Part shown: piece after piece, positions 2 through 12,574 of the stretch
Numbering within the stretch: position 1 is the first letter of the stretch
Layout: the number at the start of each line of letters is the position of its first letter
Position numbers and translations under genes: made by a program
NCBI GenBank assembly: GCA_027449865.1
Contig: DAIDKV010000097.1
Location: 62,001 to 126,000 of the forward strand
DNA: 64,000 bases
From: Planctomycetales bacterium
GTDB taxonomy: Bacteria; Planctomycetota; Planctomycetia; Isosphaerales; Isosphaeraceae
Direction of reading: 5' to 3'
Notes under the pieces: model-generated
What the model was told of the DNA's origin: nothing
The model's database searches: none
The model's input: only the letters and a program-made list of their open reading frames with translations

Positions 2-244
2 CTGGTTCAAATCCTGATGTACGTCTCTCCCGTGTTCTACCCGGCGCGGCTGGTGAAGGACTGGTGGCCGATCCTGGCCTTGAACCCGATGTTCGGGATC
101 ATCGACGGATATCGATACGCCATTCTCGGACTGCCGTGCAACCCCGGCGCGCTGGCCATCTCATCGGCGACCGCGGTGGGGATGTTTCTCTTTTCGCTGT
201 TCTACTTCCGCAAGACCGAACGACAGTTTGCCGACTTCGCCTGA
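2..244 (+). CDS. ABC-2 type polysaccharide export permease, 3' end (Wzm-like)
   Basis: Partial gene cut by the left window edge; about 80 C-terminal residues remain and the frame is open to base 2. The visible part has a Tyr/Pro-rich stretch (MYVSPVFYP), the sequence LNPMFGIIDGYR and a final hydrophobic helix ending in FYFRKTERQFADFA. That ending is typical of the last membrane helix and cytoplasmic tail of ABC-2 permeases for O-antigen or capsule export. The next gene, 115 bp downstream, encodes the matching Wzt-type ATPase, so the two probably form the inner-membrane exporter. The identification rests on the C-terminal pattern plus this neighbour. Confidence 0.8.
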   Translation: MVQILMYVSPVFYPARLVKDWWPILALNPMFGIIDGYRYAILGLPCNPGALAISSATAVGMFLFSLFYFRKTERQFADFA

Positions 245-359
245 AAACGGGCGAGAGTCTCATCAGGATCGATTGGATCTTCAACACGCGAATTTCGATT
301 CGATTTCCTGCCAACCTTTGGATCACAGCTCGGAGCAGGACCTGGAGCCGACCGATTTC

Positions 360-1628
360 ATGAGTGAAGCCATCATCACCGCCGATCGTCTGGGCAAACG
401 TTACATCCTGGGAGAGCACCTGGGATCCTCGCCGCCGATGCTCCGCGAGGTCGTCGCCCACCGGCTCCGCGAGATGCGCGGACTCCTGACCGGAGTTCGC
501 CGCGAAAAGCCGAGAGGCGAGGAATTCTGGGCGCTGAAGGACGTCTCGTTTGAGGTAAGGCCCGGCGAGGTCGTCGGCCTGGTCGGTCGCAACGGAGCCG
601 GCAAATCGACGCTGTTGAAGGTCCTCTCGCGGATCGTCGATCCGACCACCGGCATGGCGAGACTCCGAGGGCGCGTCGCCTCGCTCCTGGAAGTCGGGAC
701 CGGGTTTCACCAGGAGTTGACCGGGCGCGAGAACATCTACATGAACGGAACGATTCTCGGCATGCGCAAGGCCGAGATCGACCGGAAATTCGACGCGATC
801 GTGGCGTTCTCGGAGATCGAGGAGTTCCTCGACACGCCGGTGAAACGCTACTCGTCGGGGATGTACGTCCGGCTGGCATTCGCCGTGGCGGCACACCTGG
901 AACCCGAGATCCTGATCGTGGACGAGGTGCTGGCCGTTGGGGACGCCACTTTTCAGAAGAAGTGCCTGGGAAAGATGCAGGACGTCGCCTCGGGCGACGG
1001 TCGGACCATCCTTTTCGTCAGCCACAACATGGGGGCGATGGCCCAGCTCTGCGACCGCGGCATCCTGCTGGAGCACGGCCGGATCACGGCTGACGGGCCC
1101 GTCCGCAATGCCATCGAGAAGTATCTCCAGGCAAACGCCGACCATCGCTCGGCGCGTGCGACCTTCCCGATCGATCCGTCGAAGGCCAGTCAGGTGATCT
1201 CGATGGAGATCCGGCCGGTCGGCGGCGACAAGCCAACAGTCCAATACAGTTGCGACGAGTCGTTCGTGGTGCGGGTGGAATACGAGATCCGGTCGCAGGT
1301 CGGAGGCACCCGATTCTGGTTCACCGTGCTCAACCTCGAAGGAATCCGGGTCTTTTTCTCGGAATTCCGCGACGCCGACTCCGAGATCTCCACGCGGCTG
1401 AAACCCGGCCGACACACCTTCGAGATCACGTTCCCGCCTCGACTGCTGGCGGAAGGAACCTACGTGATCGATGTCGCCGTCGACAGGGAATTCGTCGGAC
1501 TGATCGACCATCACGCGAACTGCTGCGAGTTCACGCTTCGCGACATGATCCCCCAGCGCACGGACAGGCCGGGCTTCTTCAGCACACTCCTGCCGTGGAA
1601 GCTGGTCGACACGACCGCCGCGCTTTGA
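360..1628 (+). CDS. ABC transporter ATP-binding protein for polysaccharide export (Wzt-like)
   Basis: 422-residue ATPase that should power export of a lipid-linked glycan with the upstream permease. The start at 360 (MSEAII) is chosen because the in-frame residues before it are not family-like. Walker A GRNGAGKST lies at 76-84, the ABC signature YSSGM at 164-168, Walker B ILIVDE at 184-189 and the switch His at 222. After residue ~255 follows a ~165-residue beta-rich C-terminal domain, the position and size of the carbohydrate-binding domain that lets Wzt proteins recognise a terminal modification of their polymer. A methyl, sulfate or other cap made by nearby transferases is a plausible ligand, but that is inference. 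Confidence 0.93.
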   Translation: MSEAIITADRLGKRYILGEHLGSSPPMLREVVAHRLREMRGLLTGVRREKPRGEEFWALKDVSFEVRPGEVVGLVGRNGAGKSTLLKVLSRIVDPTTGMARLRGRVASLLEVGTGFHQELTGRENIYMNGTILGMRKAEIDRKFDAIVAFSEIEEFLDTPVKRYSSGMYVRLAFAVAAHLEPEILIVDEVLAVGDATFQKKCLGKMQDVASGDGRTILFVSHNMGAMAQLCDRGILLEHGRITADGPVRNAIEKYLQANADHRSARATFPIDPSKASQVISMEIRPVGGDKPTVQYSCDESFVVRVEYEIRSQVGGTRFWFTVLNLEGIRVFFSEFRDADSEISTRLKPGRHTFEITFPPRLLAEGTYVIDVAVDREFVGLIDHHANCCEFTLRDMIPQRTDRPGFFSTLLPWKLVDTTAAL

Positions 1629-1681
1629 ACCGCATCGAGAGCAAGGGCGAGACGATCAAGGAACGCGCATCTGGAGGGCCG

Positions 1682-3097
1682 ATGTTCGACATCCCGGTGA
1701 TGGTTGTGGGCGACGTGATGCTCGACCGTCACGTGCACGGACACGTCCGGCGGATCTCGCCGGAAGCGCCCGTGCCAGTGGTGAGCCTCGCGGGCGAGGT
1801 GGACACACCGGGCGGTGCCGGGAACGTCGCGGCCACCCTCGCGGCGATGGGAGCCCGGGTCACACTCGCCGGACTGATCGGCCCCGACGCCGAGGGAGAA
1901 CGGCTCCGCCAGGCCCTCCGGACCAAGGGAGTCACCCGGCTCGCCCTGCACGAGGGCCCAGGACTGGAGACAATCAGCAAGACCCGGATCCTCTCCGAAG
2001 GACGCCAGCAACTTCTCCGACTCGACCGGGACGGCGACCGCGCCGCGTTCGCCGAGGCGTCCGGAGCGATGCTCGAAAGCCTCCTCCCGGCTCTCGGCGA
2101 GGTATCGGCCGTGGTCCTGGCCGACTACGAGAAAGGGGCGCTCACGCCTGCCGTCATCCGGTCGATCGTCGAAGAATGCCGGCGGCGGAACCTCCCCTGC
2201 GTGATCGACCCGAAGAAGGCCGAATTCGCCGTTTACTCCGGAGCCACGGTCGTCACGCCGAACCTGCTGGAAGCCGAGCGAGCCGCCGGCCGCCCCCTGT
2301 CCGGTGACGACGCGGTCGCCTCGGCCGCGTCGTCCATGCGCCAGGCCCTCCGCCTCGACGCGATGCTGATCACCCGGGGCCCCGAGGGGATGTCGCTGTC
2401 GACCCCCGGCGGCGTCATCCACATTCCTGCGCAGGTGCGCGACGTGGCCGACGTGACCGGAGCCGGCGACACGGTGGTCTCGGTCCTGGCCGCCTGCCTC
2501 GGCTCGGGGTGGGAGATCGCCGAGGCCTGCCGGCTGGCGAACGTCGCCGCCGGGATCGCGGTGAGCCACCCGGGGACCTACGTCGTCCACGCCGACGAGC
2601 TGGCGACCGCCTGGCGCGGACTCTCGCCCAAGGTCCTCACCCGAGAGGCGGCCCGCCGTCGGCTGGAACAGGCGAGGCGCCACGGCCGGAAGGTCGTTTT
2701 CACCAACGGATGCTTCGACATCCTCCACGCCGGACACCTGGCCTCGCTGGAGGGCTCGCGACGGCTCGGCGACCTGCTCGTCGTCGGGCTGAACTCCGAC
2801 ATCTCAGTCCGCGGCCTCAAGGGCGACTCGCGACCCGTGATCGGCCAGGAGGACCGGGCCCGGATGCTCGCCGGACTCGCCTGCGTCGACGCCGTCGTGA
2901 TCTTCGACGAACCCACCCCTTACGAGCTGATCCGCGAACTCGAGCCCGACGTCCTGGCCAAGGGAGGCGACTACACCGTTGACCAGATCGCCGGGGCCGA
3001 CCTGGTCCTGGCCCGGGGCGGACGCGTGGTGACCGTCCCGCTGGTCCCCGGATTGAGCACCACGTCCATCCTCGAACGGAGCGCCCGCTTCCCTTAA
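1682..3097 (+). CDS. hldE: Bifunctional heptose 7-phosphate kinase / heptose 1-phosphate adenylyltransferase
   Basis: 471-residue two-domain enzyme of ADP-glycero-manno-heptose synthesis: it phosphorylates heptose 7-phosphate at C1, then adenylylates heptose 1-phosphate. The ribokinase-type half (about 1-320) has GGAGNVA at 44-50 and the catalytic DVTGAGD at 257-263. The nucleotidyltransferase half carries TNGCFDILHAGHL at 341-353. The start ATG 1682 follows a GGAGGG Shine-Dalgarno sequence at the usual spacing; open frame upstream of it is not family sequence. The isomerase (GmhA), phosphatase (GmhB) and epimerase (HldD) genes are not in this window. A heptose in the exported glycan or its core is implied. 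Confidence 0.95.
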   Translation: MFDIPVMVVGDVMLDRHVHGHVRRISPEAPVPVVSLAGEVDTPGGAGNVAATLAAMGARVTLAGLIGPDAEGERLRQALRTKGVTRLALHEGPGLETISKTRILSEGRQQLLRLDRDGDRAAFAEASGAMLESLLPALGEVSAVVLADYEKGALTPAVIRSIVEECRRRNLPCVIDPKKAEFAVYSGATVVTPNLLEAERAAGRPLSGDDAVASAASSMRQALRLDAMLITRGPEGMSLSTPGGVIHIPAQVRDVADVTGAGDTVVSVLAACLGSGWEIAEACRLANVAAGIAVSHPGTYVVHADELATAWRGLSPKVLTREAARRRLEQARRHGRKVVFTNGCFDILHAGHLASLEGSRRLGDLLVVGLNSDISVRGLKGDSRPVIGQEDRARMLAGLACVDAVVIFDEPTPYELIRELEPDVLAKGGDYTVDQIAGADLVLARGGRVVTVPLVPGLSTTSILERSARFP

Positions 3098-4042: not shown

Positions 4043-5860
4043 ATGCAAGTATTTGCTGGATACTCGACGCTAGTGATCCCCGATTTCTCCATGGTCGCGA
4101 CGCTTGGCGTCCTGGCCCTGCTGCTCTACGGGCTGGTGCGCGACCACCCGCCCGACGTGATGTTCGTCGGCGCCGTGGTCTTGCTGGCGGCCTTCGGCGT
4201 GATCGATCCGGCCGAGGCTTTCTCGGGGTTCGCCAACCCGGGGATGCTGACCGTCGCCGCGATGTTCGTGGTGGCCGCCGGACTCCGCGAGACCGGCGTG
4301 ATGGAGGTCATCGGCGAGAAATTCCTCGGCCGGGTTGAGACCGAGGGCCAGGCCCTCCTGCTGATGGCCGCCGTCCTCATCCCCTCGGCCATGGTCCTGA
4401 ACAACACGCCGAAAGTGGCGCTGCTGGTCCCGGTCCTCATCTCCTGGTGCCGGAAGCGGCGGATCTCGCCGTCGAGACTGCTGATGCCATTGTCGTTCCT
4501 CTCGATCCTGGGAGGAACCTGCTCGCTGATCGGAACCAGCACCAACCTCGTCGTGAAGGGGCTGGTCGACGACGCGAAGCTGCCGCCACTGGGCTACCTG
4601 GAGATCAGCAAGGTCGGCATTCCCTGCGCTCTGCTGGGGACGGGCTACCTGCTGACCATTGGCCGCCAGCTCCTCCCCGATCGCAAGGAGCTGATCGAAC
4701 AGCTTGAGGCGACCCGTCGCGAATACCTGGTGGAGATGCTCGTGCAGCCGGGCTGCCGGCTCGCGGGGAAGACCGTGGCGGCGGCCGGTCTCCGGCAGTT
4801 GCCGGGGCTCTTCCTGATCGAGATCGACCGGGACGGCGATGTGATCGGTCCGGTCGGGCCCGATGAGCCGATCCTGACCGGCGATCGACTGGTTTTCACC
4901 GGCGCGGTCGAAACGATCGTGGACCTGGAGAAGATTCCCGGGCTGGTCCCGGCCGCCGATGCCCGTTACGAGGTCTCGCCGCTGATGAAGCGAGGCCGGC
5001 AACTCTGCGAGGCGGTCATCAGTCCGAGTTCGCCACTGGTCAACCGGGCGGTCCGCGACGCCGACTTCCGCGGCCTCTACGACGCGGCGATCGTCGCCGT
5101 TCACCGGAACGGAGCCCGGGTGACAAACAAGGTGGGAGACATCCGGCTCCACGCCGGCGACACACTTTTGCTTCAGGTCGGGCCGAACTTCGCCCGGTCG
5201 TTCCGCAATAATCCCGACTTCTACCTGGTGAGCGAGGTGGAAGACTCCAGCCCGGTCCGACACGACCGGTCGCGGGCCTCGGTCGTGATTTTCGGGGCGA
5301 TGATCGTCGCGTTCGTCTCGAACCGGGTGGACATCATGCTCACGGCGATGGTCGCCGCCGGAGCGATGGTGGCCGCGCGTTGCGTCTCGTCGGCGCAGGC
5401 GCGAAAGGCGCTCGACCTGCCGGTACTGGTCGCCATCGCCGCCTCACTCGGCGTCGGCCTGGCCCTGGAACGATCGGGCGTGGCCCGACTCCTCGCCGAA
5501 GGACTCGTCGCCCTAACCCGACCCTACGGACCCAGAGCGACTCTCGCGGCGCTGTATCTCGGGACGATGGTCCTCAACGAGCTGATCAGCAACAACGCGG
5601 CGGCCGCGCTGGCGTTCCCGTTCTGCATCGAGTCGGCCCGGCTGCTCGGCGTGAACGACCGGCCGTTCATCATGGCGATCACGCTGGCCGCCTCGTACGC
5701 GTTTGCCTCGCCGATCGGCTATCAAACGCACATGATGGTCTTCGGACCCGGCGGTTATCGCTTCGCCGATTTCCTTCGGGTCGGTATCCCACTGAACCTG
5801 CTGATGGGCGCCGCGGCCGTCGTTCTGGTTCCCTGGATCTGGCCGTTCACCGGCCCCTGA
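4043..5860 (+). CDS. SLC13 family permease with two TrkA-C (RCK_C) domains
   Basis: 605-residue membrane protein of the DASS/SLC13 superfamily. Hydrophobic helices flank two soluble TrkA-C-like domains at about 231-295 and 321-380, each with the pattern of a hydrophobic strand, xGDxL and V-x-G. The N-terminal half has NNTPKVALLVPV and GTSTNLVVKG, and the C-terminal half LNELISNNAAAALAF; these two related substrate/Na+-site motifs are characteristic of the fold. Bacterial and algal proteins of this architecture include sulfate transporters (SAC1/SLT type). Together with the sulfotransferase and PAPS-making enzyme nearby, sulfate uptake is the favoured but unproven role. Confidence 0.87.
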   Translation: MQVFAGYSTLVIPDFSMVATLGVLALLLYGLVRDHPPDVMFVGAVVLLAAFGVIDPAEAFSGFANPGMLTVAAMFVVAAGLRETGVMEVIGEKFLGRVETEGQALLLMAAVLIPSAMVLNNTPKVALLVPVLISWCRKRRISPSRLLMPLSFLSILGGTCSLIGTSTNLVVKGLVDDAKLPPLGYLEISKVGIPCALLGTGYLLTIGRQLLPDRKELIEQLEATRREYLVEMLVQPGCRLAGKTVAAAGLRQLPGLFLIEIDRDGDVIGPVGPDEPILTGDRLVFTGAVETIVDLEKIPGLVPAADARYEVSPLMKRGRQLCEAVISPSSPLVNRAVRDADFRGLYDAAIVAVHRNGARVTNKVGDIRLHAGDTLLLQVGPNFARSFRNNPDFYLVSEVEDSSPVRHDRSRASVVIFGAMIVAFVSNRVDIMLTAMVAAGAMVAARCVSSAQARKALDLPVLVAIAASLGVGLALERSGVARLLAEGLVALTRPYGPRATLAALYLGTMVLNELISNNAAAALAFPFCIESARLLGVNDRPFIMAITLAASYAFASPIGYQTHMMVFGPGGYRFADFLRVGIPLNLLMGAAAVVLVPWIWPFTGP

Positions 5861-6266: not shown

Positions 6267-6974
6267 ATGGGCCTTATCGAGGTCCTCAAGACATTCCCGC
6301 TGATCCGCCTACCCGCGCGGTTTCGTCGGTCGCCCTACGACGCCGACGGTCGGATTCCCCACGGGGTCGTCGGTATCCGGCGCTTCGGCCACCGCGACTA
6401 TGTCGGCGGCCTCTGGGACGAGATTGGCCGGCTTCAGTTCGACTTTCTCGTTTCGCAAGGACTCCAGCCGCGCCACTATCTGCTGGATATCGCGTGTGGG
6501 TCGCTACGGGCGGGGGTCCATTTCATCCCCTACCTGGAGCCTGGCCACTACCTGGGGATCGACAAGGAAGCCGAACTGATCCAGGCCGGTCTCCAAAAAG
6601 AACTGGCGCCGGAGGTTCGCCGAGAGCGCCAGCCGATCCTGCTGGTCAACGGGGAGTTCGCGTTCGATCGGTTCGGCGTTCGGCCCGATTACGCACTGGC
6701 GCAGTCGCTGTTCACCCACCTGACTCCCCCACTGATCGAGAAATGCCTGGGGAACCTTCGACCCGTGATCGCCGAGGGAGGCGCCTTCTACGCGACCTTC
6801 TTCGAGTCGAGCGAACCACGGGAAAATCCGGAGAAGCCGCACGACTGGGCAGCCTTCCGCTACACCCGCGAGGAGATGGAACGGTTCGGACGGTTGACCG
6901 GCTGGGACCTCGACTACATCGGCGACTGGAACCACCCGCGGTCGCAGAAGATGGTCCGGTATCGACCCGCGTGA
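6267..6974 (+). CDS. Class I SAM-dependent methyltransferase
   Basis: 235 residues with motif I LLDIACGSLRAG at about 72-83, followed by the acidic post-I residue in YLGIDKEAELI. The remaining Rossmann-type core (YALAQSLFTHLTPP, then GGAFYATFFES) matches small-molecule or sugar O-methyltransferases. Its stop codon overlaps the GTG start of the sulfotransferase gene (GTGA at 6971-6974), so the two are translationally coupled and may modify the same sugar. The substrate is unknown. Confidence 0.82.
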   Translation: MGLIEVLKTFPLIRLPARFRRSPYDADGRIPHGVVGIRRFGHRDYVGGLWDEIGRLQFDFLVSQGLQPRHYLLDIACGSLRAGVHFIPYLEPGHYLGIDKEAELIQAGLQKELAPEVRRERQPILLVNGEFAFDRFGVRPDYALAQSLFTHLTPPLIEKCLGNLRPVIAEGGAFYATFFESSEPRENPEKPHDWAAFRYTREEMERFGRLTGWDLDYIGDWNHPRSQKMVRYRPA

Positions 6975-8302
6975 TCGTCGGGACGTTGCCGCCGGTCGGG
7001 ATTGGAGGAACGGTTTTGGATGCGAGAAGCCGCCCGCCCATCTTTGTGGTTGGGGTGCCGCGATCCGGGACCACACTGCTGGCGGCGATGCTGGGGGCTC
7101 ATCCCCGGCTGGTCTGCGGCCCCGAGACGCATTTCTATCGCGAGTTGCCGGAAAATATCGGCCCGCTCCGCCAGCAGGCGGATTGGCCCGGTTCGGCGAT
7201 CGATTACCTGTACTCCATCCGACACGTCGGTGAGTCGATCCCGGCGAACTACGGACTCACCCGCGATGACCTGACCGAGGCACTGGCCGATCTCCGGCCG
7301 TCGGTCGCCTCGATCCTCTCGGGGATGATCGGCCTGTATGCGAAGCGGCTGGAAAAGCCGCGATGGGTCGAAAAGACGCCGGACCACCTGCCCCACGTCG
7401 CCCGGATTCGGCGCGACTTCCCGGAATCACCCATCGTCCGGATCGTCCGGGACCCGCGCGCGGTGGCCGCCTCGCTGATGGCCGTTCCGTGGGGCCCGAC
7501 CACTGTCTTCGAGGCGCTGGAACTCTGGCGACACCACGACGCCCGAAGCGCCCGGTTCTTCCAGAACGATCGGAAGGCCCAGACCATCCGATACGAGGAC
7601 CTGGTGGCCGAGCCTGAGAGAATTTTGCGAGAAGTTTGCCGGGCGATCGGTGAGGAATTCGAGCCGGCGATGCTGGAGACGAGCGGATCAGCCGCGCGGG
7701 TCAACGCGGCTCGGGAGCCGTGGAAAGAGAGGGTCGCCGAGAGGGTCGACGCGAGTCGGGCCGGGGCCTGGCGAGAATCGCTCGACGAGGACGACCTCCG
7801 GCTGGCCGAAGCCTGGCTGGGCGACCGGATTCAGGCGTACGGCTATCCGCTCTCGGGGTTTGCGTTTCCCCACTACATCGAGGCATTCCCCCGATCGCTG
7901 GACGACGTTGGTCCAGAAGGCTACGGACACCTGGGAGGTCCCTCGCGCGACGAGGAACTGCTGGGACGAAGCATCGTGGCCGTTCGGGGGCTCGTGTCAT
8001 TGGGCGGGCGATTCTGGGGAGAGCCCGGAGAACGGCCCGTTATGAGCCTGTTTCTGGGCTCACCCAACGGCTGGCTCGGGCGTCGAAGATACGCCCGGAC
8101 AGTGCGGCTGTCGGCCTGGATACTCCGCCGGCGGATGGAAGGCATTCCGCTGGCCTGGGCCGGAGCGCCGGTCCCATGGAGTCTCCAGGGCCGATGCGTC
8201 CGGGTGGTCGCCGGGCTTCTTCCGCCCGTCTCGGAGGAGCCGGGCCTGCCGGTCCTCGCCGCTGGTCCGGACTCGCCCGCCGGAGAATACGCGAACCGTT
8301 AA
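6971..8302 (+). CDS. PAPS-dependent sulfotransferase
   Basis: 443 residues from a GTG start that overlaps the upstream stop. The 5'-phosphosulfate-binding loop GVPRSGTTLL lies at about 28-37 and the 3'-phosphate-binding segment RIVRDPRAVAASL at about 156-168, both diagnostic for the Sulfotransfer_1/3 superfamily. After the ~300-residue core there is an extra C-terminal region of about 140 residues that I do not recognise. Its donor PAPS can be made by the bifunctional enzyme at 22829-24757. Sulfation of the exported polysaccharide is the simplest reading. Longer open frame exists upstream but it crosses the methyltransferase and is not family-like. Confidence 0.9.
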   Translation: MIVGTLPPVGIGGTVLDARSRPPIFVVGVPRSGTTLLAAMLGAHPRLVCGPETHFYRELPENIGPLRQQADWPGSAIDYLYSIRHVGESIPANYGLTRDDLTEALADLRPSVASILSGMIGLYAKRLEKPRWVEKTPDHLPHVARIRRDFPESPIVRIVRDPRAVAASLMAVPWGPTTVFEALELWRHHDARSARFFQNDRKAQTIRYEDLVAEPERILREVCRAIGEEFEPAMLETSGSAARVNAAREPWKERVAERVDASRAGAWRESLDEDDLRLAEAWLGDRIQAYGYPLSGFAFPHYIEAFPRSLDDVGPEGYGHLGGPSRDEELLGRSIVAVRGLVSLGGRFWGEPGERPVMSLFLGSPNGWLGRRRYARTVRLSAWILRRRMEGIPLAWAGAPVPWSLQGRCVRVVAGLLPPVSEEPGLPVLAAGPDSPAGEYANR

Positions 8303-8407: not shown

Positions 8408-9349
8408 ATGCCATCCTCCGAAAATTCTCCCCTCGACCTGAAATCCCTCCGCTACGAGCCGCTGGAGACCCGGCCGAGCAAGGTCCGGCTGGCCGATCTG
8501 GGCCGTCCGGTCGGCGGGTCGTCGACCATCGACGAGTGGCTGGAATCCCTGCCGGAGATCCTGGCGGGCCAGTGGATTCGCCGGCTCCGCGACGCGATCG
8601 TCGGGTCGAGGTCCCGGGGCCGTCCGGTCGTCGCGGCGATCGGCGGCCACGTGATCAAGACGGGCTGTGCTCCGTATCTCAACGACTGGCTGGCGCGCGG
8701 GGTGCTGACCGGCGTGGCGATGAACGGATCAGCGGCCATTCACGACCTGGAACTGGCGATCAGCGGTCACACCAGCGAGGACGTCGGGGCCCGGCTCCTG
8801 GCCGGAACCTTTGGATTCGCCCGCGAGACCTCGGAGCTGTTCGCCGAGGCGTGCGAGGCGGCGGCGTCCGGCGGGATCGGGCTCGGAGCCGCGCTCGCCG
8901 ATCGGATCGAAAAGGAAGGCGGCCCCGGCCTCGACGCCAGCCTGCTGGTCGCCTCGCGCCGGGCCGGGACACCGGCGACGGTCCACGTCGCGATCGGGAC
9001 CGACATCGTTCACATGACGCCCAGGCTCGACCCGGCCGCGCTGGGAACCGCGTCGATGGCCGACTTCCGTCTCCTCTGCCAGCGGGTCGCCGGGCTGGCC
9101 GGCGGCGTCTGGATGAACATCGGCAGCGCCGTGGTCATGCCCGAGGTCTTCCTCAAGGCCGTGGCGATCGCCGGGAATCTGGGCGTTTCGCTCGACGGAA
9201 TGACAACCGCCAACCTGGACTTCCAGCAGCAGTACCGCGGCCGGCTCAACGTGCTGGATCGCCCCGGCGGCGAGGGGATCGCCCTGACCGGCCACCACGA
9301 ATTGCTCATACCCCTGCTCCACGCATCCGTCGGGGCGAAAATGGGATAG
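8408..9349 (+). CDS. Deoxyhypusine-synthase-like protein
   Basis: 313 residues resembling the deoxyhypusine synthase fold: AIGGHVIKTG at about 77-86, VAMNGSAAIHDLELAISG at about 103-120 followed by HTSEDV, then VHVAIGTDIVHMTP and NIGSAVVMPEVFLKA. The NGS/IHD and TSEDV blocks match those lining the NAD and spermidine sites of true DHS. Bacteria lack eIF5A, and homologues of this bacterial branch may act as homospermidine-synthase-like or unknown enzymes. A conserved catalytic Lys in the family's usual C-terminal position is not obvious here. Its place inside a glycan locus suggests a role in a modification or NAD-dependent step, but this is open. Confidence 0.65.
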   Translation: MPSSENSPLDLKSLRYEPLETRPSKVRLADLGRPVGGSSTIDEWLESLPEILAGQWIRRLRDAIVGSRSRGRPVVAAIGGHVIKTGCAPYLNDWLARGVLTGVAMNGSAAIHDLELAISGHTSEDVGARLLAGTFGFARETSELFAEACEAAASGGIGLGAALADRIEKEGGPGLDASLLVASRRAGTPATVHVAIGTDIVHMTPRLDPAALGTASMADFRLLCQRVAGLAGGVWMNIGSAVVMPEVFLKAVAIAGNLGVSLDGMTTANLDFQQQYRGRLNVLDRPGGEGIALTGHHELLIPLLHASVGAKMG

Positions 9350-9579
9350 GCGGGAGAGCTCTCGAAATCGCGCGGTATCACAAGGGCAATCCATTTCATT
9401 TGAAGTGTTCTGGATTTCTTGTCGGGCTTGTCGGACACCATTCGAATGAATCGATGGATGATCAGAAAGTGAGAGACAGGAGGTCGTCGAGTTGTTCTCA
9501 TGATAAAATTGTGTCTGTTTCCTGAACAGACCTCACAAACACCGAGGTGTTGGGGCGGCTACCCAACAGACGGACGTCG

Positions 9580-10557
9580 ATGTCCTGCGTGCCTCCTCTC
9601 ATCTCGGTTCTGCTCCCGGTTTACAACGCCGAGCGCTTCATCTCCGAGGCAGTGGAGAGTATTCTTGGCCAGACGCTCGAGGACTTTGAGTTTCTCATCA
9701 TCGATGACGGTTCGACGGACGGAACGCTTGAGATTCTGCGTCGGTACGAGAGGCGGGATTCTCGGATTCGGCTCTGGAGTCGTCCGAACGAGGGACTGGC
9801 GGCGACGCTCAACGAGCTGATCGACGCGTCGAGCGGAGAGTTTCTGGCACGGATGGACGCGGACGACATTTCGCGATCCGAGCGGTTCGCGCGTCAGGTC
9901 GCGTATCTCCGAGGGCATCCGGAATCGGTACTGGTGGGATCGCGGATTCGTCTGATCGACCCGGACGGCGACCCGCTCTGCGACTGGTGCACCGAGGAGG
10001 AACACGAGGCGCTTGAGGGGGTTTTCCTGCGTGGGGATCGTCGCACGACGATCGCCCATCCGTCGATCATGATGCGGCGTGCGGCGGTTCTGGCGGTGGG
10101 GAAGTACCGGGAACTCCGGCTGCTGGAAGAGGTGGATCTGTATCTCCGGCTGGGAGAGATTGGCCGGCTGGCGAATTTGCCCGATGTGCTGCTGGAGTAT
10201 CGGATCCACGACGGGAACATGTCGAGGGCGGCGCTCCAGGATAAAAGGATCGACCGTGACTTCCGGAGGTTGCTCCAGGAGGTGAGGCGGCGTCGGGGTC
10301 TGCCCGAGCCGAACGTGGAGCCGGACCAGGACCAGGGGCGGTCTCTGGATTCGTCCGATCCGAACGGCGAGGCCGCGCCCCCGTCGTGTCCACCATCAGG
10401 GCCAGACCCGTTCGAGCAGAGAATGGGATGGGCCTGGTGGGCGCTGGGGGCAGGCCACAAGGCGACGGCCCGAAAGCACGCTCGCTGGGTCTTTGCACAT
10501 GCGCCGATGGCGCTCCGATCGTGGAAACTGATGTACTGTGTCCTCCGGGGCCATTGA
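9580..10557 (+). CDS. Glycosyltransferase family 2
   Basis: 325 residues from ATG 9580; a GTG 33 bp upstream is an alternative start. This is a GT-A fold transferase: the N-terminal ISVLLPVYNAERF strand-loop, DDGSTDGT at about 43-50 for nucleotide binding, and MDADD at 91-95 as the metal-binding DXD. After the catalytic core (about 1-215) there is a Pro/Asp-rich linker and a short Trp-rich C terminus. It should transfer one sugar to a growing lipid-linked chain on the cytoplasmic side. Its 3' end overlaps the next ORF by 20 bp. Confidence 0.9.
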   Translation: MSCVPPLISVLLPVYNAERFISEAVESILGQTLEDFEFLIIDDGSTDGTLEILRRYERRDSRIRLWSRPNEGLAATLNELIDASSGEFLARMDADDISRSERFARQVAYLRGHPESVLVGSRIRLIDPDGDPLCDWCTEEEHEALEGVFLRGDRRTTIAHPSIMMRRAAVLAVGKYRELRLLEEVDLYLRLGEIGRLANLPDVLLEYRIHDGNMSRAALQDKRIDRDFRRLLQEVRRRRGLPEPNVEPDQDQGRSLDSSDPNGEAAPPSCPPSGPDPFEQRMGWAWWALGAGHKATARKHARWVFAHAPMALRSWKLMYCVLRGH

Positions 10558-12574
10558 TGGGTCGGACGCGTTGCGACCGGTCGATCGGGCCCCGATTTTG
10601 AAGAGACGCCACGTGTCGACGTTCGCCCTGATCGCCCTGCTGGGCTGGCCATTTCTGGTGGCGATTTTGTTCCTGATGGCGCCGGACCGTCGGACGGTGG
10701 CGTTCGCGATCGTCGGGGGCTGGCTGCTCCTTCCACCGTATGCGCTTGTATTCACAGGATTTCCCGACTACACGAAGGTCACGGCGTCGGTCATCGGAAT
10801 TCTCGGGGCGACGATTCTTCTGGCCCCCAATCGCCTTCTCCAGCTCCGGCCGGGTTGGATCGATCTGCCGATGGTTGTCTGGTGCTTGCTTCCCTACGCG
10901 ACGTATCCGTCGAACGGGCTGACGCTCTACAGCGCGATGTCCGACTCCCTGGAGCAGACGGTTTTTTGGGGGGCACCGTACCTGATTGGCCGGATTTATT
11001 TCCAGACGCTGGAAGACCTGGGCTCCTTCGCCCGGACGATCGTGATCGGCGGTCTGGCTTATGTCCCGCCGTGTCTGATTGAAATCCGGCTAAGCCCGCA
11101 GTTGCAGGCGATGCTCTACGGTTACGGGAGCTGGCAAGGGACGCGCATGGGGGGCTATCGGCCGTATGTCTTTTTCTCGACCGGGCTGGAGCTGGGACTC
11201 TGGATGACGGCAGCATCCATGACCGGATGGTGGATGTGGCGAACGGGAGCGATTCGACGGATCGGGGCCTGGCCGTTTGGGATGCTGTTATCGGGACTGG
11301 TGGTAACGACCGTGCTCTGTCGATCGACCGGGGCGCTGATTCTGCTATTCCTGGGGATGGCGGCGATCTGGCTGACGACACGCCTGCAAACCCGGATGGT
11401 GCTGGTCGGATTGCTGCTGGTTGGCCCGATATTCGTGACCGCGCGAACGACCGGTGCGTGGTCGGGGGCACAGGCGGTGGAACTGGCGAAAGCGACCTTC
11501 GGCCCCGAGCGGGCGGAGTCGCTGGAATTCCGGTACAAGTGCGAGAAGAAGCAGATGGCGCACGCCATGACACGGCCCTTGCTAGGGTGGGGGGGATTTG
11601 GCCGGAACTTTGTCACCTTTGATGACAATCCGAACAAATTGATGCCGCCGGATGGCCTCTGGATCGCCGTCCTGGGAACGAAGGGATTTCTTGGTCTGAT
11701 CGCCCTGTATCTGGCGATCATCCTGCCGGCGGCGCGTGCGGTCCGGCTGGTTCCGCCCCGGTCGTGGTCGGACCCGCGGCTGGCTGGAGCAATGATTGGG
11801 GTGGGCCTGCTGGGGATCTACATCATCGACAGCCTGCTCAACGGGTTCATTAACGTCATCTACCTGGCGATGTGCGGCGGGTTGGCGACGGTCTCGGCGC
11901 GGGAGTTTCTCGCCGGGGGAAAGACCGGAGAGCTGTCGAAACCGCGAGAGGCGTCGCCGACGAGTGCCCGACCGAGACGCCCGAAGGACCTGGCCGCGGA
12001 GTCGGCCAGCGGCCCGGCGCGACTGGCCGAGCAGTGCCGGTCGCTGGGCCGGTCGTACCGCCGCGAGGGGAGGGCCGACGAGGCCGACGCGGCCTGGTCG
12101 CAGGCGCTGGACTGGCTGGCCGCCGCCGTGACGGCCAACCCATCGGCCGACGCCCCACGGCGGGCCTGGTGCGACTGCGCCAACGACCTGGCCTGGCTCC
12201 GGGCCAACCGGCCCGAGGAGTCGCGGCGCGACCCGAAATCGGCCGTCACCCTCGCGAGCCGGACCGTCGAGGAATACCCCGAGGTCGCCGCCTACTGGAA
12301 CACCCTGGCCGCCGCCCGCTATCGCGCCGACGACCCGGATGGCGCGCTGGCGGCGCTGGGGCGGTCGCGGTCGCTGGCCGGCGGGACGGCCTTCGACGAG
12401 GTCCTCCAGGCAATGGCCCTGGGTCGCTCGGGCGAGGTCGAGGCCGGGCGCGAGGCGCTGGCGCGTGCCCTGCTGCTGGCCGAGCGAGACCACCCCGGAC
12501 ACGCCGAACTGGCGGCGCTCTGCGACGAGGCCCAGGCCCTGCTCGCCGTCGCCGCACCGACCAGCGCTGTCTAG
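10538..12574 (+). CDS. O-antigen ligase/polymerase-like membrane protein with C-terminal TPR region
   Basis: 678 residues. About the first 460 residues form many hydrophobic helices. A periplasmic-loop motif near 340-352 (MAHAMTRPLLGWGGFG) is the conserved Wzy_C/WaaL signature, in which a polymer or ligase reaction uses an undecaprenyl-linked glycan. The last ~200 residues are soluble, Ala/Arg-rich and fit tetratricopeptide helices (AEQCRSLGRSYRREGRADEA, AAYWNTLAAARYRADDPDGAL). The start is uncertain: GTG 10538 overlaps the GT2 gene, and in-frame TTG/GTG codons near 10600 also precede the first helix. TPR-fused ligases exist in planctomycetes; partner binding is the likely TPR role. Confidence 0.82.
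   Translation: MSSGAIDGSDALRPVDRAPILKRRHVSTFALIALLGWPFLVAILFLMAPDRRTVAFAIVGGWLLLPPYALVFTGFPDYTKVTASVIGILGATILLAPNRLLQLRPGWIDLPMVVWCLLPYATYPSNGLTLYSAMSDSLEQTVFWGAPYLIGRIYFQTLEDLGSFARTIVIGGLAYVPPCLIEIRLSPQLQAMLYGYGSWQGTRMGGYRPYVFFSTGLELGLWMTAASMTGWWMWRTGAIRRIGAWPFGMLLSGLVVTTVLCRSTGALILLFLGMAAIWLTTRLQTRMVLVGLLLVGPIFVTARTTGAWSGAQAVELAKATFGPERAESLEFRYKCEKKQMAHAMTRPLLGWGGFGRNFVTFDDNPNKLMPPDGLWIAVLGTKGFLGLIALYLAIILPAARAVRLVPPRSWSDPRLAGAMIGVGLLGIYIIDSLLNGFINVIYLAMCGGLATVSAREFLAGGKTGELSKPREASPTSARPRRPKDLAAESASGPARLAEQCRSLGRSYRREGRADEADAAWSQALDWLAAAVTANPSADAPRRAWCDCANDLAWLRANRPEESRRDPKSAVTLASRTVEEYPEVAAYWNTLAAARYRADDPDGALAALGRSRSLAGGTAFDEVLQAMALGRSGEVEAGREALARALLLAERDHPGHAELAALCDEAQALLAVAAPTSAV

Follow-up and report, generated by a model that had tools for sequence, protein, structure and literature searches.

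In the established heptose pathway, HldD acts after HldE. HldD is the ADP-L-glycero-D-manno-heptose 6-epimerase, a short-chain dehydrogenase (SDR) that works by transient oxidation of C6 with NADP and, to our knowledge, the sole enzyme making the L-glycero form of ADP-heptose. Many bacteria carry hldE and gmhA without HldD, which implies either that D,D-heptose is used or that another enzyme exists. Deoxyhypusine synthase (DHS) and ornithine cyclodeaminase borrow NAD, taking up a hydride and giving it back; the nucleophile of human DHS is a lysine that we take to be K329, a residue also present in a PDB entry title. The family considered here, NF052581 (“GSU2086 family protein”), is a named family with no function assigned by NCBIfam. 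It includes GSU2086 of Geobacter sulfurreducens, which has been described as a hypothetical cytoplasmic protein of a sugar biosynthesis operon, and which scored −3.2 in Tn-seq during growth on an electrode, alongside −3.1 for hldE (GSU2085) and −3.7 for gmhA (GSU2087) (PMC5585712). Among the papers found, GSU2086 was named in no other, and literature searches covering DHS-like bacterial proteins, HldD replacement, heptose in Geobacter and planctomycetes, and AgrE/ArgZ returned no prior proposal of a heptose role for the family. The evidence for a place in the heptose pathway and for replacement of HldD is the new content of this analysis; it makes the family a specific candidate for HldD-less bacteria, with a mutant phenotype already published in Geobacter.

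The gene studied lies in the window, by which we mean the whole stretch of 64,000 nucleotides analysed, from a Planctomycetales bacterium. According to the ORF list and its translation, the gene occupies an open frame of exactly the span given in Table 1, and its product, P0001, is retained at 40–94% identity across 63 aligned relatives, which marks the frame as a gene rather than a chance occurrence. P0001 is a full-length member of NF052581 (345.8 bits for a cutoff of 250, E = 2.5e-103; profile positions 1–300 of 301) and shares the gmhA/hldE neighbourhood of this family, with no difference noted. Pfam gave just one match, to PF21570, below threshold (13.6 bits, cutoff 27), and a phmmer search with P0001 against the PDB gave none. 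Scanning of genome contigs by a peptide-pattern search, which is incomplete by nature, yielded 70 NF052581 loci in Planctomycetota, Acidobacteria, Nitrospirae, Deltaproteobacteria, Armatimonadetes, Gemmatimonadetes and other phyla, and the alignment of P0001 with 63 of them contained 35 invariant columns. In the family tree (137 rows), the window protein fell inside clade A (123 rows), the main clade associated with lipopolysaccharide (LPS) genes, and the paralogue clades B and C (14 rows) were set off by a well-supported branch. The residues invariant in clade A include H81, K84, H112, D113, E115, D199, E246, K250, D271, Y276, R277, R285 and E298; conservation of E246 does not extend to the paralogue clades, and at most three of their 14 rows were alignable at Y276, R277, R285 and E298.

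The initial annotation called this protein DHS-like, with the NAD and substrate-pocket blocks of DHS retained, and the fold part of this description was borne out. The AlphaFold model of P0001, built on the 63-relative alignment (mean pLDDT 92.4, pTM 0.88), predicts a DHS-like fold over nearly the whole chain. The top Foldseek ranks were ArgZ (6juy, E = 4.1e-7) and the DHS of P. horikoshii (7cmc, E = 5.0e-7), and VIA-align superposed the model on AgrE (6lrf; Z 21.5, 217 residues, 3.0 Å), DHS (7cmc_D; Z 21.0, 263 residues, 3.7 Å, 9% identity), AgrE with ornithine and NAD+ (6lrg; Z 20.9) and human DHS with NAD (1dhs; Z 19.4). By analogy with the last two, which were crystallised with NAD, P0001 probably binds this cofactor. 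By sequence profile and structure taken together, the closest relatives are the C-terminal domain of ArgZ/AgrE and the archaeal LOR/SDH protein (TIGR00300, PF21570; 6juy, 6lrf, 6lrg, 3c2q). The nearest solved structures by profile were ArgZ and AgrE (E = 6.5e-5 and 6.6e-4), followed by 3c2q, and P0001 has the HD.E..G motif in common with this type of domain. It differs from these proteins in scoring below their cutoffs and in having no arginine/ornithine gene context. Identity as an ornithine cyclodeaminase was rejected on the TIGR00300 score (13.0 bits, cutoff 410.8); a separate, true TIGR00300 gene (509 bits) is present elsewhere in the genome. A search for literature on the nickel-pincer label of TIGR00300 found none.

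Similarity to DHS and the bacterial homospermidine-synthase-type proteins (PF01916) extends to the fold, over nearly the whole chain, and to remote homology, a distant but real kinship that the initial annotation had picked up. Comparison by hhalign of the P0001 family with 30 bacterial PF01916 proteins gave a probability of 95 (E = 2.4e-8 for that single comparison), and the PF01916 profile weakly picked up GSU2086-family members in 3 of 59 genomes. P0001 itself gave no PF01916 match at E ≤ 1 (gathering cutoff 27 bits), and it differs from PF01916 proteins in genome context and in having no conserved lysine of the catalytic type: none of columns 258–313 of the 123 clade-A rows contained lysine at more than 30%, a limit of our own choice. 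The DHS lysine motif falls in a gap of the P0001–PF01916 profile alignment, where the alignment, and with it the exact equivalent position, is uncertain. The family scores and the missing C-terminal lysine led us to reject P0001 as a DHS or homospermidine synthase, and they leave the proposed retention of the DHS substrate pocket without support. Nor is the homospermidine-synthase identity supported, given that the same genome has its true PF01916 gene elsewhere (G000:C44:4045-4935, locus L078; 236.7 bits). The annotation had also argued from the absence of eIF5A in bacteria, which carries no weight here: true PF01916 genes are common in the phylum (over the cutoff in 38 of the 59 genomes sampled), and the P0001 gene is not among them.

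The window carries hldE in the same orientation as the gene, 5.3 kb upstream of it; the rfaE_dom_II match of HldE was over the cutoff (189.1 bits) and the rfaE_dom_I match just below its own (332.3 bits, cutoff 345). The nearest relatives (L005, L006 and L008) have the order ABC transporter, hldE, CitMHS transporter, GSU2086-family gene, without the full sulfotransferase and the methyltransferase of the window, which are therefore local features. At 10538-12574 the window encodes a long membrane protein whose C-terminus carries a TPR region; the membrane part has no family match, and the protein looks O-antigen-ligase-like by eye.

Table 1. Position and strand of the GSU2086-family gene and its neighbours in the window.
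Feature	Coordinates	Strand	Remarks
ABC transporter ATPase, Wzt C-terminal domain (polysaccharide export type)	228..1628	+	start is the ORF finder's choice
HldE, bifunctional heptose-7-phosphate kinase / heptose-1-phosphate adenylyltransferase	1655..3097	+	rfaE_dom_II, rfaE_dom_I
CitMHS/TrkA-C transporter	4043..5860	+	directly upstream of the GSU2086-family gene in L005, L006, L008
Methyltransferase	6267-6974		
Sulfotransferase (PF13469)	6932..8302	+	neighbour, not a conserved partner
GSU2086-family protein (NF052581)	8408..9349	+	313 aa, DHS-like fold; predicted NAD-dependent HldD replacement
GT2 glycosyltransferase	9547..10557	+	neighbour

The flanking sulfotransferase and glycosyltransferase, which led the initial annotation to suggest a role in sugar or polyamine decoration of a polymer, are both present. 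The linkage to glycan genes recurred in other genomes, with different partners. Clustering of the ORFs of the 70 loci and the window, followed by confirmation of recurrent partners by family scan, identified LpxK (TIGR00682, 177.9 bits), HldE, GmhA, heptosyltransferase II (TIGR02195, 147.3 bits) and an LpxL-type acyltransferase. In the HMM recount, which covered 69 of the 71 sequences (the gene was lost by the ORF filter in L009 and L011), at least one of hldE, gmhA, lpxK, a GT9 heptosyltransferase gene and lpxL was found in 51 of 69 loci, the window included: LpxK in 24, HldE in 21, GT9 in 18, GmhA in 15 and LpxL in 11, with LpxK (19), HldE (16) and GmhA (14) directly adjacent on the same strand. 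The remaining 18 loci, many of them from Nitrospirae, had no heptose or lipid A marker. A homologue of the window sulfotransferase was found near the gene in only three of the 69 loci, one of them partial, and the sulfotransferase was accordingly rejected as a functional partner. The glycan link of the family is thus to heptose and lipid A genes across phyla rather than to sulfation, and these partners do not favour polyamine decoration; the annotation was right about the fold and half right in its reading of it. An isocitrate-dehydrogenase-like gene was also observed directly upstream of lpxK and the GSU2086-family gene in 10 planctomycete loci (L009, L010, L011, L012, L014, L016, L017, L018, L019 and L020).

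HldD and the GSU2086 family share pathway partners and an operon slot before hldE, and their distributions are almost mutually exclusive; P0001 differs in having no SDR or HldD family match (none to TIGR02197 or SDR profiles at E ≤ 1). NF052581 was over the cutoff in 97 of 195 Planctomycetota genomes and HldD (TIGR02197), for which the best 7–10 candidates per genome were scored, in 40. Family members were split by match length into a short form (88 genomes) and a long paralogue (11 genomes). The short form and HldD occurred together in one genome, the short form without HldD in 87, HldD without the short form in 39 and neither in 68 (p = 3e-11). The same split was 1/80/38/31 (p = 2e-15) among the 150 genomes with a listed hldE match (≥294 bits), and 1/77/38/34 (p = 2e-14) when seven genomes were left out because their genes were clade-B-like, doubtful or fragmentary. 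Across the 195 genomes, clade-A GSU2086 and HldD were each positively associated with hldE (p = 7e-9 and 1e-4, respectively) and with gmhA (p = 0.04 and 8e-4). Of 105 genomes with hldE and strong gmhA matches (≥135 bits for gmhA, our own choice), 50 had GSU2086 only, 31 HldD only, one both and 23 neither; the last group implies that an HldD-type step is not always needed, or that there is a third solution. The short form immediately preceded hldE in 47 of its 88 genomes (57–143 bp between profile ends), as did hldD in 11 of 40, and in Planctomycetota the order was always the short form or hldD first, then hldE. In family f25, six genomes had GSU2086 only and 11 HldD only, with none having both or neither (p = 8e-5), and the exclusion recurred in families f34 and f56.

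The exclusion was also found outside Planctomycetota. The genomes of 50 of the 70 loci were scanned for HldD (the 20 left out lay mostly on short contigs); these GSU2086-bearing genomes belong to many phyla, and HldD was over the cutoff in only one, that of Singulisphaera acidiphila (326.4 bits), the GSU2086 copy of which is close kin of that of the window. The best match in the remaining 49 was 145.3 bits. In a second phylum, that of Thermodesulfatator autotrophicus (296 genomes, scored for HldD as above), GSU2086 was present in 178 genomes and HldD in 70, with both in 12, GSU2086 only in 166, HldD only in 58 and neither in 60 (p = 3e-17). We read 21 loci from the 178 GSU2086-bearing genomes, including nine where the genome also has HldD. 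In all 21, gmhA adjoined the gene, directly upstream in 20 (<400 bp) and directly downstream in one, and hldE followed the gene in three. In L256, the GSU2086-family gene shares 4 bp with gmhA, and hldE begins 7 bp further on. Replacement of GmhA rather than HldD was rejected, given this adjacency and the positive association of gmhA with the gene. The hldD sites read in this phylum (19; 11 from genomes with both genes and eight with hldD only) were near neither gmhA nor hldE in 18 cases, and the shared slot is therefore a planctomycete observation.

Common ancestry was assessed on HldE. The tree of 60 HldE proteins required at least 11 changes of GSU2086/HldD state, six or seven of them forced by well-supported branches. 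An extended tree had 100 rows, 31 of them from genomes with neither gene; rows were sampled by state, and label counts are therefore not frequencies. In 10 supported independent pairs differing in GSU2086, HldD differed in the opposite direction in 4.5 pairs on average and in the same direction in about none, some pairings containing one such pair (median p = 0.125). A relaxed scoring, adding two split GSU2086 genes and six HldD matches below the cutoff and chosen post hoc, when the genomes with neither gene had already been seen, gave 5.6 opposite pairs (p = 0.031). The direction is consistent once phylogeny is controlled for, but the test is low-powered and the result only suggestive.

Pathway linkage, near mutual exclusion and the shared slot together suggest that the family replaces HldD, and the similar Tn-seq scores of hldE, GSU2086 and gmhA in Geobacter and the predicted fold speak for the same reading. 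Against it count the genomes with both genes (1 of 195, 12 of 296 and 1 of 50), the low power of the pair test, the 23 genomes with neither gene and the tight gmhA linkage in the second phylum. We lean, slightly, towards clade A of the GSU2086 family being an NAD-dependent enzyme with a DHS fold that replaces HldD without being its orthologue. It would be an ADP-heptose 6-epimerase, the substrate, epimerisation and product of which would be identical to those of HldD. The protein, predicted to bind NAD(H), would work in the synthesis of ADP-heptose for the LPS inner core, C6 giving up a hydride to a firmly bound NAD+ and receiving it back on the other face, in a redox-neutral use of NAD resembling that of DHS and ornithine cyclodeaminase, minus the covalent lysine step of DHS. 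An epimerase of this kind fits a DHS fold with a predicted NAD site and without the covalent lysine. We would give even odds to the broader proposition that the L,D-heptose of about half the sampled Planctomycetota, most of the second phylum as sampled and members of several other phyla is made by an enzyme that has no relation to HldD and would be the first sugar-nucleotide epimerase with a DHS fold, swapped with HldD in the same slot either back and forth or several times one way. If this is true, the DHS fold, so far associated with the chemistry of polyamines and ornithine, is also used in sugar epimerisation.

The same pathway and final stereochemistry would be obtained if the enzyme acted earlier, epimerising C6 of heptose-7-phosphate, of the bisphosphate or of the 1-phosphate ahead of adenylyl transfer by HldE. 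The linkage to gmhA fits such a step, since no neighbour is tied more closely to the gene in the second phylum (directly upstream in 20 of 21 loci) and gmhA is adjacent in 14 of the 69 loci of the recount, as does a paralogue in the same genome lying between genes for a PfkB kinase and a HAD hydrolase. We nonetheless regard this as rather unlikely, and favour ADP-heptose as the substrate, because HldE proteins from genomes with GSU2086 and from genomes with HldD intermingle on the tree, with at least 11 switches, which suggests that HldE probably keeps one substrate, and because hldD, the product of which acts after HldE, occupies the same slot. Alternatively, D,D-heptose might be used unepimerised, with the enzyme altering the D-glycero form by oxidation, dehydration or amination, hence the exclusion of HldD. 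Mutual exclusion and pathway linkage would fit here too, and 23 of the 105 genomes manage with neither gene, but a new sugar would have to be gained independently many times, each time with loss of HldD and in the same slot, making this explanation distinctly unlikely.

Very unlikely, in our judgement, is a pattern of exclusion reflecting shared ancestry within a few large clades, the gene having another role in LPS synthesis, such as one in lipid A with LpxK. The independent-pair test, being only suggestive, leaves room for this, and lpxK is the commonest neighbour (24 of 69 loci, 19 of them adjacent), but the exclusion recurs in f25, f34, f56, the second phylum and many phyla. The function closest to the initial annotation, that of a DHS- or homospermidine-synthase-type aminobutyl transferase placing a polyamine on a glycan, has in its favour the fold match (Z of about 21) and the remote profile similarity; its probability is nevertheless slight, given the lack of a PF01916 match and of a conserved C-terminal lysine, the true PF01916 member encoded elsewhere in the genome and the heptose and lipid A genes as partners. 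For the preferred reading, replacement of HldD, the paralogues set a boundary. The long paralogues (clade C) displayed no exclusion of HldD in the 195 genomes (1/10/39/145, p = 0.30), and none was next to hldE among the hldE matches listed for these genomes; the claim is therefore limited to clade A.

The long paralogues, of about 370 aa, comprise L100:2014-3120, from the genome of the window itself (G000:C262) and the one flanked by the PfkB kinase and HAD hydrolase genes, and those of L101–L110. Those of L106 and L107 lie beside an ORF that is metK-like by eye, and that of L108 beside a HAD phosphatase gene. A third clade of the family, with proteins of about 310 aa, is represented by L111, L112 and L114, some of the genomes concerned having no strong hldE match. 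Finally, the copies in records named Candidatus Kuenenia stuttgartiensis (L017, L018, L019 and L031) fall among those of Isosphaeraceae and Gemmataceae in the family tree, and these bins may be misnamed.
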